Origin: Hymenobacter nitidus
Lineage (GTDB): Bacteria; Bacteroidota; Bacteroidia; Cytophagales; Hymenobacteraceae
Direction: 5' to 3'
Assembly: GCF_020447315.1 (NCBI RefSeq)
Contig: NZ_JAJADQ010000014.1
Location: forward strand, 62,001 to 126,000
DNA: 64,000 nt
Made by a program: the position numbers and the translations under genes. Positions within the stretch are counted from its first letter, which is position 1. Each line of letters starts with the position of its first letter. Under the pieces are notes generated by a model, which saw only the letters and a program-made list of their open reading frames with translations, did not search any database and was not told where the DNA came from. Positions 11,830-43,769 of the stretch are shown one piece after another.

Positions 11830-11905
11830 AATGAGAGGCTGGAGGTTGTAGGATAGGAGAACGTACTTGGCCGCTCCTGAAGTGCGCCAAGAAAACTTTC
11901 TCCCC

Positions 11906-11929
11906 CACCATTTCACAATTTCACCTTCC
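11906..11929. repeat. Possible fragment of the GGTGAAATnGTGA repeat
   Basis: CCACCATTTCACAATTTCACC in the divergent promoter region resembles the arms of the repeats at 42270-42369 and 42571-42669. Only one arm is present, so this may be a chance match or a decayed copy. Confidence 0.3.
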
Positions 11930-40647: not shown

Positions 40648-42207
40648 CTAGGCGTTGGTATTAGCCGCCAGGCGCTCTACGGCCGCCGTAATGCGCTGCG
40701 CCGTTTCCCGGGCCCCGATAATGCTCATAATAGCCATTAAGTCGGGGCCGGCGGCTACGCCGGTTACTACCACGCGCAGCGCCTGCAGCACCTGCCCGAT
40801 TTTCACGCCCTGACGCTCCAGCACCATTGTCAGCAGGGTTTTGATGCCGTCGGGTGTGGTGTCGTGATGGGCGGGCAGCTCCTGAGCAAAAGCCAGCAGG
40901 GCCGAAGCCGTAGCCGCGTTCCACTTCTTGCTGATAACCTGCTCGTCGTAGCTCTCGGGAGCAATAAAGAAGTACTGGGCCTCGCGCCAGAAGTCCTGCG
41001 GGAAGGTGACGCGCTCCTTCATGGCGCCCACAATCTGCACGGCCTTTTCCTCGGAGCACTCAATGTTGTGCTCTTTCACCGCCGTGAGCAGGAACTGGGC
41101 CAGCTCGGCGTCGGGCTTGGCACGCAGGTAGTGCTCGTTGTACCAGCGCACCTTGTTCTGGTCGAAGCGGGCCGGCGACTTGCTCACCCGCTCAATGCTG
41201 AAGGCCTCAATCAGCTCGGGCATCGAGAAAATCTCCTGCTGGGAGCCAGGGTTCCAGCCCAGGAAAGCCAGGAAGTTGATGAAAGCGTCGGGCAGGTAGC
41301 CACTTTCGCGGTAGCCACTGCTCACTGTGGGCTGGCCGGTTTCGGAGTCGGTGCCGTGCCATTCGAGCGGGAATACGGGGAAGCCGAGCTTATCGCCGTC
41401 GCGCTTGCTGAGCTTGCCGGTGCCGTCGGGCTTGAGCAGCAGGGGCAGGTGGGCAAACTGCGGCATGGTGCTTTCCCAGCCAAAGTAGCGGTAGAGCAGC
41501 ACGTGGAGCGGCGCCGAGGGCAGCCACTCCTCGCCCCGAATGACGTGGGTGATTTCCATCAGGTGGTCATCCACGATGTTGGCCAAGTGGTAGGTCGGCA
41601 TGCCGTCCGACTTCATCAGCACCTTGTCGTCGATGCTGCTGGAGTGTACTACTACCCAGCCGCGAATCATGTCGTTGAAGCGGACTTCCTCCTTGCGCGG
41701 CACCTTCAGGCGAATGACGTAGGGCGAGCCGCTGTCCAGCAACTGCTTTACCTCGTCTTCGGGCAGGGTCAGGGAGTTACGCATCTGGGTGCGCGTAATG
41801 CTGTTATACTGCGGATTAGGCACCTTGGCCGCCGTCAGGCGGGCGCGCATGGCGTCTAGCTCTTCGGGCGTGTCGAAGGCGTAGTAGGCGTGGCCGCTGC
41901 TGATGAGCTGCATGGCGTACTCCATGTACATGGGCTTCCGCTCACTCTGCCGGTAGGGCGCGTGCGGGCCGGGCGTTTCGCTCCAGGGGCTTTCGTCCAG
42001 CTCAATGCCGCACCACTTCAGGGATTCAGCAATGTACTGCTCGGCGCCGGGCACGAAGCGGTTCTGGTCGGTGTCCTCGATGCGCAGCAGCATTTTGCCG
42101 CCCATCTTACGTGCAAACAAATAGTTATACAGCGCCGTGCGCACGCCGCCGATATGTAACGGTCCCGTAGGGCTGGGCGCAAAGCGCACCCGTACTTCTC
42201 TCTCCAT
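40648..42207 (-). CDS. gltX: Glutamate--tRNA ligase
   Basis: Charges tRNA-Glu in the cytoplasm. The 519-residue protein has the class I signature HIGG at 18-21 in PSPTGPLHIGGVRTAL and the KMSKS-like loop KLSKR at 265-269, as in other bacterial GluRS. The anticodon-binding domain occupies the C-terminal third. The start MEREVRVRFAP fits the family. Confidence 0.97.
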   Translation of the reverse strand: MEREVRVRFAPSPTGPLHIGGVRTALYNYLFARKMGGKMLLRIEDTDQNRFVPGAEQYIAESLKWCGIELDESPWSETPGPHAPYRQSERKPMYMEYAMQLISSGHAYYAFDTPEELDAMRARLTAAKVPNPQYNSITRTQMRNSLTLPEDEVKQLLDSGSPYVIRLKVPRKEEVRFNDMIRGWVVVHSSSIDDKVLMKSDGMPTYHLANIVDDHLMEITHVIRGEEWLPSAPLHVLLYRYFGWESTMPQFAHLPLLLKPDGTGKLSKRDGDKLGFPVFPLEWHGTDSETGQPTVSSGYRESGYLPDAFINFLAFLGWNPGSQQEIFSMPELIEAFSIERVSKSPARFDQNKVRWYNEHYLRAKPDAELAQFLLTAVKEHNIECSEEKAVQIVGAMKERVTFPQDFWREAQYFFIAPESYDEQVISKKWNAATASALLAFAQELPAHHDTTPDGIKTLLTMVLERQGVKIGQVLQALRVVVTGVAAGPDLMAIMSIIGARETAQRITAAVERLAANTNA

Positions 42208-42269
42208 AAAAACAGAAATTCGCGTCGAATCTGACTAGAAACGCGCCGCGAAGGTACAAAGATCAAATG

Positions 42270-42369
42270 GTGAAATAGTGAGGTGGTGAAATGGCGAGTT
42301 TGCTGTTCAATCCGCGCAAACGCCGTCAGCGGAACAACAACTCACCATTTCACCAGCTCACTATTTCAC
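42270..42369. repeat. Inverted repeat GTGAAATAGTGA..., copy A
   Basis: Left arm 42270-42308 and right arm 42331-42369 are nearly exact complements over about 39 bp (GTGAAATAGTGAGGTGGTGA against the complement of the right arm), with a 22-bp GC-rich loop. It lies just after the 61-residue membrane gene and resembles copy B at 42571-42669. Confidence 0.75.
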
Positions 42370-42371
42370 TG

Positions 42372-42557
42372 CTAGTCCCGGTTGCGGTAGGCAAGGTAGA
42401 GGATGAGGCCCAGCAGCGTGATGCCGCCCCGGATAACCCAGGCCACAGTGGTGCCCCATTGATCAATCCAGGTGAGCAACATGGATTTCATACCCAGGAA
42501 GGGCAGAATCAACGACAGCAAGCCGAGCAGCAGCAGGCCTAGTCCAAGTTCTTTCAT
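42372..42557 (-). CDS. Small membrane protein, 61 residues
   Basis: Two membrane helices with small residues (LGLGLLLLGLLSLILPFLG and VIRGGITLLGLILYL) separated by a short loop, and a basic end. It lies between two repeat copies, A and B, in the same orientation as ridA and gltX. The function is unknown. Confidence 0.65.
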   Translation of the reverse strand: MKELGLGLLLLGLLSLILPFLGMKSMLLTWIDQWGTTVAWVIRGGITLLGLILYLAYRNRD

Positions 42558-42570
42558 AAGACGAAATTGT

Positions 42571-42669
42571 AAGGTGGTGAAATAGGGAGTTGTTGTTCAA
42601 TATGCGCAATGACGCGCAGTCAGAACGAAAAACTCACCATTTCCCTATTTCACCATCTCGCTACTTCAC
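42571..42669. repeat. Inverted repeat GTGAAATAG..., copy B
   Basis: GGTGGTGAAATAGGGAGTTG and the later CACCATTTCCCTATTTCACC arm are complementary, with an insertion in the right arm. The right arm overlaps the last codons and stop of ridA. The sequence is clearly related to copy A. Confidence 0.65.
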
Positions 42670-43047
42670 CGCAATGCACGAAATTTCGACCTGCACGTCT
42701 TTGGGCAGGCGACTCACTTCCACAGTTTCGCGGGCCGGGGCATAGTCGTCCTTGAAGTAGCTACCGTAGATTTCGTTGATCAGGCCAAAGTTGCCGAGGT
42801 CTTTGACGAAGATGCTGCACTTCACTACGTCGCGCAGCGTCATGCCGGCCGCGCCCAGCACGGCCTGCAGGTTGCGCATTACTTGGTGGGTTTCGGCGGC
42901 TACGTCGCCGTTGCCGACGAGCTGGCCCGAGGTGGCATCCAGGGCAATCTGGCCCGAGACGTACACGGTGTTACCGGCCTGAATAGCCTGGCTGTAGGGG
43001 CCGATGGGAGCAGGAGCGTCGGGCGAGTAAATGATGGTGTTGGCCAT
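42661..43047 (-). CDS. ridA: RidA-family reactive intermediate deaminase
   Basis: Hydrolyses 2-aminoacrylate and related imines made by PLP enzymes, protecting them. The 128-residue protein has the RidA pattern: APAPIGPYSQAI near the start, VYVSGQIALD, GMTLRDVVKCSIFVKDL, then the conserved Arg in PARETVEVSRLPKDVQVEI. It is a trimer in other bacteria. Its last codons are overlapped by repeat copy B. The MANTIIYSPDAP start is the standard one. Confidence 0.93.
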   Translation of the reverse strand: MANTIIYSPDAPAPIGPYSQAIQAGNTVYVSGQIALDATSGQLVGNGDVAAETHQVMRNLQAVLGAAGMTLRDVVKCSIFVKDLGNFGLINEIYGSYFKDDYAPARETVEVSRLPKDVQVEISCIAVK

Positions 43048-43103
43048 AGAAAAGAGCGTGCGGGTGGATGGTTTATCTTTAGGTCAAAAGTAAGCGGAAA
43101 AAT

Positions 43104-43769
43104 ATGCACCTCTTTATCGTCGACGGCCATTACCTGGAAGCGGAGTTTCGGCGCAAGTTCGGCCCGGCCCACAGTTACGACTTCTGCCCTGGTACGGCCC
43201 CCGACCTGCTTACCCGCCTTGGCGCGGCCGATGTAGCTTTCGACCTGCGGCCCTGGCCCGAGCTGCACTACGAACAGCCGCGCCAGCCGCTTTTCTACCA
43301 CACCAGCAGCCGTACCCTGGCCGAGATTTTCCGGGGCGAAGAGCCACCGTTCGGGCCAGTGTTTGGCTTTTGTGCCCTGCCCACTTTACTCGACCGGCCG
43401 GTGCTGGAAGCAAGCCTGTACCGGCCGGAAGATTCTCCGGAGCTGGTACGGCTATGCGCTGCCCTGGGCACCGATTACTGCCTGGTGCAGGACCGCGTCG
43501 GGCTGCTCACGCCGCGCGTGGTCTGCGCGGCCATCAACGAAGCTTGCCATGCCCTGCAGGAATCGGCCGCCAGTCTGGCCGATATAGAGCGCACCGTGCG
43601 GCCCGCCGCTAGTAGCGGCCTGGGCCCTTTTGGGTGGGCCAATGCCCTCGGGATAGAGCGGGTGTACGAAGTGCTCGAAGCGCTGTATCAGGACACGCAC
43701 GATGCCCGCTACCGGGTTGCGCCGCTGCTGAAAAGCATGGCCCTGCGAAACCAGTCTTTCGCGCTGTAG
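43104..43769 (+). CDS. Protein with 3-hydroxyacyl-CoA dehydrogenase C-terminal domain only
   Basis: A 221-residue protein. Residues about 125-215 (LTPRVVCAAINEACHALQES, ADIERTVRPA, LGPFGWANALGIERVYEVL) are a 3HCDH C-terminal dimerisation and substrate domain. The N-terminal half (1-115) has no GxGxxG NAD-binding motif and instead shows HLFIVDGHYLEAEFRRK and FRGEEPPFGPVFGF. It may therefore be a catalytically dead or substrate-binding relative. It is divergent from ridA; a terminator follows. Confidence 0.7.
   Translation: MHLFIVDGHYLEAEFRRKFGPAHSYDFCPGTAPDLLTRLGAADVAFDLRPWPELHYEQPRQPLFYHTSSRTLAEIFRGEEPPFGPVFGFCALPTLLDRPVLEASLYRPEDSPELVRLCAALGTDYCLVQDRVGLLTPRVVCAAINEACHALQESAASLADIERTVRPAASSGLGPFGWANALGIERVYEVLEALYQDTHDARYRVAPLLKSMALRNQSFAL

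Follow-up and report, generated by a model that had tools for sequence, protein, structure and literature searches.

The region under study lies in a window of 64 kb, the whole stretch of Hymenobacter nitidus DNA that was analysed. It holds the minus-strand genes ridA, a small gene and gltX, together with two palindromes designated copy A and copy B. The features discussed below are the following:

11905-11925, minus strand: possible half arm of two in-register octamers, second arm not found.
40648-42207, minus strand: gltX, matching PF00749 (class I tRNA synthetase), the glutamyl assignment being a reading of the sequence.
42268-42371, no strand assigned: copy A, a palindrome and the best covariance-model match (101 bits).
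42372-42557, minus strand: small gene of 61 aa, no Pfam match, product probably a membrane protein as judged from its sequence.
42559-42669, no strand assigned: copy B, a palindrome of the same family (87 bits over 42559-42663), whose outermost octamer, to 42669, was assigned by eye beyond the model match.
42661-42669, minus strand: last codons of ridA, GTG AAG TAG (Val-Lys-stop), inside the outer octamer of copy B.
42661-43047, minus strand: ridA, matching PF01042.

Copy A is placed between the stop codon of the small gene (42372-42374, 2 nt past its arm) and gltX, while copy B occupies the junction from the ridA stop to the start of the small gene. Each palindrome stands directly after a minus-strand stop codon, in agreement with the initial annotation, which had located them at the 3' ends of two same-strand genes. 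The proposal that copy B forms the end of ridA was also confirmed, as Val-Lys and the TAG lie within its outer octamer and the stop (42661-42663) falls in its octamer register. Just after copy A, ahead of gltX, there is a promoter-like box, TACCTTCG, so called on the basis of the promoter consensus TANNTT[TC]G. The small gene was also considered as a mobile cassette, an idea that was discarded given that it adjoins ridA in several relatives both with and without the element. In one relative (G017, locus L099) the small gene is absent and a single element is found between ridA and gltX, an arrangement that could have resulted from recombination between two flanking copies.

The two related palindromes reported at 42270-42669 are real, with paired arms and folds far better than those of shuffled sequences. 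In copy A, arms of 31 nt (42270-42300 and 42339-42369) are 94% complementary and consist of octamers in the order GGTGAAAT-AGTGAGGT-GGTGAAAT-GGCGAG around the core GTTTGCTGTTC...GCGGAACAACAAC, while the 33-nt arms of copy B (42563-42595 and 42635-42667) are 76% complementary. The folding energy of copy A is -57.8 kcal/mol on the plus and -61.7 kcal/mol on the minus strand (z about -10), and that of copy B is -45.5 (z -6.8) and -41.9 kcal/mol (z -4.8); none of 200 shuffles matched these energies in any of the four strand tests. The sequence GTGAAATAGnGA, initially described as the shared unit, is indeed present in the arms, but since these are tandem octamers it represents one and a half words and not the basic unit. 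Similarly, the possible fragment noticed at 11906-11929 does contain two in-register octamers (11905-11925), but no partner arm was seen and it is absent from the covariance-model matches listed, for which the 150 best candidates were scored, so that its membership is not established. A search of copy A against plasmid and phage records gave no match at E 1e-3, so that carriage by either is unsupported. A search of Rfam returned eight matches up to E 1 (seven microRNA models and one snoRNA), all under the gathering score, and a known Rfam RNA was rejected as the identity of A or B.

The claim that A and B belong to a dispersed family was supported, and the two are not the only copies. With copy A as query, 77 aligned pieces were obtained in the H. 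nitidus genome, and a covariance model built from 19 H. nitidus copies gave 94 matches over both strands, counted as at least 50 places. This figure is a lower bound, since scoring was confined to the 150 best candidates from the first look; the places were accepted up to E 0.1, the last five having values of 0.002-0.1. Of 61 genomes of the genus, 56 gave a match at E 0.01, and the number of matches per genome ranged from 0 to at least 65. At the level of the taxonomic family matches at E 0.001 were found in 38 of 80 genomes and in four of six genera, and at the level of the class in 8 of 149 genomes at E 1e-4, H. nitidus included. No family match was found in the reversed-sequence control. 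When the exact core pattern was searched in the collection of named genomes, 79 of the 80 matches listed were titled Hymenobacter; among the matches listed, one exact core match (L132) belongs to a metagenome bin titled Chloroflexi. In other families of the class, the matching sequences have octamer arms but not the Hymenobacter core, and the loci L288-L299, from other Bacteroidia families, likewise show octamer-armed hairpins with the words GTGATTTA/GTGAATTA and without this core. Our literature searches found no published description of a GTGA-octamer hairpin family.

The element is a palindrome of about 104 bp, whose arms are arrays of about three or more tandem octamers of the form GTGARNTR, with a conserved inner stem, GTGAGTTTGATGTTC / GAACATCAAACTCAC, around a GCGC-containing loop. 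Four H. nitidus loci (L041, L055, L058 and L067) carry long versions with nested palindromes such as GTCCTTGCGAGG... and a terminator-like centre, AAAGCCCTTTCC...GGAAAGGGCTTTT, inside the octamer arms; GTCCTTGCGAGGCG occurs 41 times in the H. nitidus genome with up to one mismatch, while its reversed control is absent. In H. daecheongensis, several copies (loci such as L130, L150 and L166) hold tandem TGCGCCNNN 9-mers in the loop.

The two arms of a copy resemble each other more than they resemble the arms of other copies. In a set of 118 copies from named genomes, selected by the core pattern (hereafter the named set), octamer positions 5, 6 and 8 differ at frequencies of 0.51-0.57 between copies and 0.25-0.32 between the arms of one copy, and arm mismatches per 24 positions amount to 7.4 between and 4.5 within copies; 106 of the 118 left arms are distinct. 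In one species with 25 copies the arm difference was 3.1/24 within a copy, against about 6 between copies, and seven copies were perfect. Arm matching is weaker in the H. nitidus genome (7.4 within against 9.9 between, in 28 strict-search copies). The covariation score was 0.266, compared with 0.166 in shuffles, none of which reached 0.266 in 500 trials; when slid, the score did not exceed 0.160. Pairs with changes in both partners were not exceptionally numerous, since 67 of 500 shuffles reached the same count. With respect to mismatch types, 43 tandem copies contained 28 G-U and 31 A-C mismatches, and convergent copies with up to four mismatches leaned to A-C (18, against 8 G-U). Selection for an RNA-level stem, in so far as it would be seen as a G-U excess, is therefore unsupported.

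Regarding position, the distance from the element edge is in the range of -25 to +40 nt for 44 of 49 stop sides in H. nitidus. Genes were predicted with a codon-usage caller that trims some start codons (that of gltX by 102 nt), so that start-side distances are upper estimates in places. Among the 50 H. nitidus places, 41 are tandem, 4 convergent and 5 divergent. In 29 of the 41 tandem copies a stop codon lies up to 15 nt from one foot and the next start up to 35 nt from the other, and in 36 the next start is no more than 50 nt away, so that most of them look intercistronic. A box of the TANNTT[TC]G type is missing in 34 of these 36. Copy A is among the exceptions, with such a box before gltX. 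The suggestion that the repeats now serve as mRNA ends fits copy A and the convergent copies, but most H. nitidus copies lie between closely spaced genes of the same direction.

In the named set, 149 of 158 stop sides are within 60 nt of the element. After eight copies at a locus edge had been dropped, the remaining 110 comprised 58 tandem, 50 convergent and 2 divergent cases, compared with 428, 79 and 116 among 623 element-free gaps of the same loci; divergent gaps are depleted (Fisher p 4e-7) and convergent ones enriched (Fisher p 6e-14). The H. nitidus genome shows no such convergent excess (4 of 50 copies), given that the 54 element-free gaps of the window comprise 38 tandem, 8 convergent and 8 divergent cases. 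Stops in octamer register account for 75 of the 149 stops within 60 nt in the pattern-selected named set, where 2/8 is expected by chance, while in the H. nitidus genome they were found in 6 of 25, the chance level; copy B nevertheless does supply the ridA stop. Stops in all three frames are provided by 113 of 151 GTGA arms in the sense reading and by 1 of 151 in the antisense reading.

The same junctions were compared in relatives. Among 18 relatives, the slot downstream of ridA holds in some an octamer element or a remnant and in others a different hairpin or nothing, some of the different hairpins showing a T-run by eye. Together with the slots of 30 of 43 further matches, with orthology taken from best matches, 48 slots were classed: 11 have an octamer hairpin, 12 a different hairpin, 2 octamer words whose stem is weak, and 23 none. 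The rules are rough, as several slots scored as none hold weaker or decayed octamer arms by eye (L096, L097, L099, L103, L273) and L266, scored as octamer, appears by eye to be another hairpin beside a half arm. The coding control gave 0 hairpins in 48. The most clear-cut slot is flanked by an iron-sulphur gene (PF01799, PF00111) and by a gene of the FAD-binding molybdopterin-dehydrogenase type (PF00941), and 12 loci from 11 genomes were compared there. In 11 of these both flanking proteins are like the H. nitidus pair (at least 0.80 upstream and 0.66 downstream), while the G003 locus (0.68 and 0.38, genes overlapping by 4 nt) probably represents a paralogue and was not counted. In one orthologous locus, that of G011, the genes are separated by 4 nt and the junction is empty, and the other 10 of the 11 carry inserts of 71-132 nt, eight of which fold at z <= -4.2 (mononucleotide shuffles), the exceptions being G009 (z -1.9) and the decayed copy of G001 (z -0.3). 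About six unrelated insert sequences occur, namely GTGA octamers, TTAGGGC-like, GTGATGA-like, GTAGTAA-like and TGAATTA-like words, and a non-repetitive stem.

Word-built arms are also found outside the family. A total of 118 other hairpins with arms of at least 24 nt, from the named loci and the window, were screened for periodicity at p 0.01 and lags 5-12, and 26 were periodic (the period was 7 in 11 of them, 8 in 14 and 11 in one), about 10 of the 14 period-8 cases being, by eye, GTGA octamers missed by the strict search. In a second sample of 40 stretches of 20 kb at round positions (lags 4-14), 11 of 76 hairpins were periodic (three at lag 7, five at lag 8 and three at lag 14); this sample was not fully blind, since its genomes and contigs were picked among those with model matches and at least two stretches (L322, L332) hold a known place; judged by eye, one of the periodic cases (G105) resembles a chance event. 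Most hairpins are hence not periodic, and those that are keep to 7 or 8. In element-free gaps, hairpins occur in 43 of 67 convergent, 93 of 375 tandem and 10 of 113 divergent cases. At L136, L187 and L217 the heptamer arms GTTGTCA/GTTGTTA resemble Nostoc intergenic words (csR1.1, in the part of PMC2408588 drawn upon).

On balance, we favour, with some reservation, the reading that the GTGA-octamer hairpins are mRNA hairpins at gene ends, the arms of which are kept alike by copying at the DNA level. In mRNA the element would fold as a long hairpin with the upstream stop codon in its foot and, in same-direction pairs, with the opposite foot near the start codon that follows. Read inward, each arm contains TGA, and since an 8-letter word is out of step with the triplet code, three such words place a stop in every frame, whichever side is read. 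The likely effect, which is suggested by position, would be that the reading frame is closed and that the upstream message has its 3' end protected or set apart; the lack of a U-run in A and B argues against a canonical terminator. The arms of one copy would stay matched most likely through template switching during replication together with slippage of words. The equal numbers of G-U and A-C mismatches favour such copying over slow RNA compensation, although the lack of a G-U bias counts against RNA-stem selection as much as it does for copying. Moreover, local template switching does not account for how a single word set reached dozens of loci. Other points against the favoured reading are the 23 of 48 slots of relatives that scored as having no hairpin, the chance-level share of in-register stops and the missing convergent enrichment in H. 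nitidus, and the unexceptional number of pairs changed on both sides. As a broader and only tentative suggestion, to which we give less than even weight, the family may be one dialect of a wider class of hairpins built from 7- or 8-letter words, with many unrelated vocabularies, which one process (slippage with template switching, or an undescribed enzyme) re-creates in stop-to-start junctions; in operons the hairpin would then fold out the insert of 70-130 nt and join the stop to the next start.

Another explanation is a non-autonomous MITE- or REP-like element moved in trans by a transposase, for which the stop sites are merely tolerated insertion points; we regard it as rather doubtful. Terminal inverted repeats and dispersed copies, by which MITEs are recognized, are both present; dozens of scattered copies share one core, match numbers vary among congeners from 0 to at least 65, G001, the closest relative by ridA identity, has 5 matches against at least 65 in H. 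nitidus, and the 4-nt junction of G011 is empty. The suggested link to a RAYT or IS200-like transposase, however, was not supported. A search for Y1_Tnp (PF01797) at E 0.01 gave no match in the H. nitidus genome while being positive in 6 of 14 control genomes, which excludes a RAYT encoded in this genome as the mover, and no association was seen across the 61 genus genomes, Y1_Tnp being present in 13 of 23 genomes with at least 40 element matches and in 24 of 38 others. No target duplication was visible by eye in the empty or replaced slots compared, the relatives being too distant, and copy A lacks the plasmid or phage match mentioned above. The evidence for recent copy-and-paste inside a genome, as far as the sequences suggest, is mixed. 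The arm distance between loci is 0.348 for different species but only 0.244 inside H. daecheongensis, 0.218 inside H. telluris and 0.269 inside H. persicinus, and arm pairs at a distance of up to 0.10 are 27 of 856 within species and 15 of 3149 between; this likeness across loci in three species points to spread or conversion between loci. On the other hand, the within-species distance is not smaller in H. nitidus (0.396), H. roseosalivarius (0.431) and H. citatus (0.358), and the mean identity to the nearest copy within and in other species is nearly equal (0.827/0.796, 0.795/0.798 and 0.717/0.719), the between-species pool being larger.

A mutational by-product, in which slippage builds arrays of 7-8 nt words, template switching inverts them and they are kept only where harmless, appears unlikely to us, although it would account for the periods of 7, 8 or 14 in 25 of 26 and 11 of 11 periodic cases, for the several unrelated word sets and for the lack of an RNA-level mismatch bias, and template switching has a precedent (the portion of PMC8794818 cited). 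Local events would not be expected to bring one word set with one core to 50 or more loci, or to yield word-like copies in other families, and the concentration of hairpins at 3' ends in element-free gaps also speaks against it. We consider it less probable still that the elements are bidirectional transcription terminators spread by selection for termination. The excess of convergent and the shortage of divergent copies in the named set, the promoter-like box after copy A and the other hairpins in the ridA slot of relatives, some with a T-run by eye, are all in line with termination. Yet A and B lack a T-run after a G+C-rich stem and the region of 42100-43200 contains no terminator-like site (1.3 expected in shuffles), so that a canonical terminator was rejected for both copies; in addition, the 36 same-direction copies close to a start, 34 of them without the box, and the element between molybdopterin-type dehydrogenase genes that are only 4 nt apart in another species are difficult to reconcile with this role.

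If mRNA hairpins with DNA-level arm copying are what the family represents, a sizeable share of the gene separators in these bacteria would be self-correcting, word-built hairpins that close reading frames, and the position at a junction would be retained while the hairpin sequence is replaced. It would then become testable how perfect RNA stems arise and persist by template switching, and by what route small repeats disperse when no transposase is known for them; annotated protein ends in these bacteria should be treated with caution, as they can be repeat-derived.

Among known systems, REP/BIME sequences with their RAYT are also dispersed extragenic palindromes near stop codons, and REPs up to 15 nt from a stop stall ribosomes, according to the part of PMC12306157 considered. 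They differ from the present family in size, as an element of about 104 bp with octamer arrays contrasts with the 20-40 bp given for REPs in the cited portion of PMC3733652, and in their transposase, since the H. nitidus genome lacks Y1. The GTAG-tagged REPs also supply stop codons, as stated in the section of PMC3733652 used here, but copies A and B, by eye, have no GTAG or CGTC tag end, and Hymenobacter does not appear in the main text of that paper on GTAG/CGTC REPs, as far as its cited part extends. The heptamer tandem repeats of cyanobacteria, Beggiatoaceae and Bacteroidetes share the use of non-triplet words (PMC4679880 and PMC2408588, each for the part concerned): the TAACTGA repeats provide stops in all three frames (same part of PMC4679880), and the Nostoc words ttgtcagttgtca match heptamer arms found here (same part of PMC2408588). 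In most genomes heptamers are the commonest longer simple repeats, for which polymerase slippage was suggested, in a study cited in the relevant section of PMC4679880. As the same passages describe them, however, they are direct repeats, mostly just before start codons (main genome), and not inverted arms of post-stop hairpins. BrickBuilt, a MITE of Porphyromonas and thus also from the Bacteroidota, resembles our family in having tandem units inside a small inverted-repeat element, but its 23-nt units form a direct array 49-591 nt from genes and have promoter activity, according to the excerpted part of PMC4596501. Finally, the hairpins made by template switching were shown, in the part of PMC8794818 referred to, for RNA genes and not for a dispersed bacterial repeat, but they offer a mechanism that both creates and re-perfects stems.
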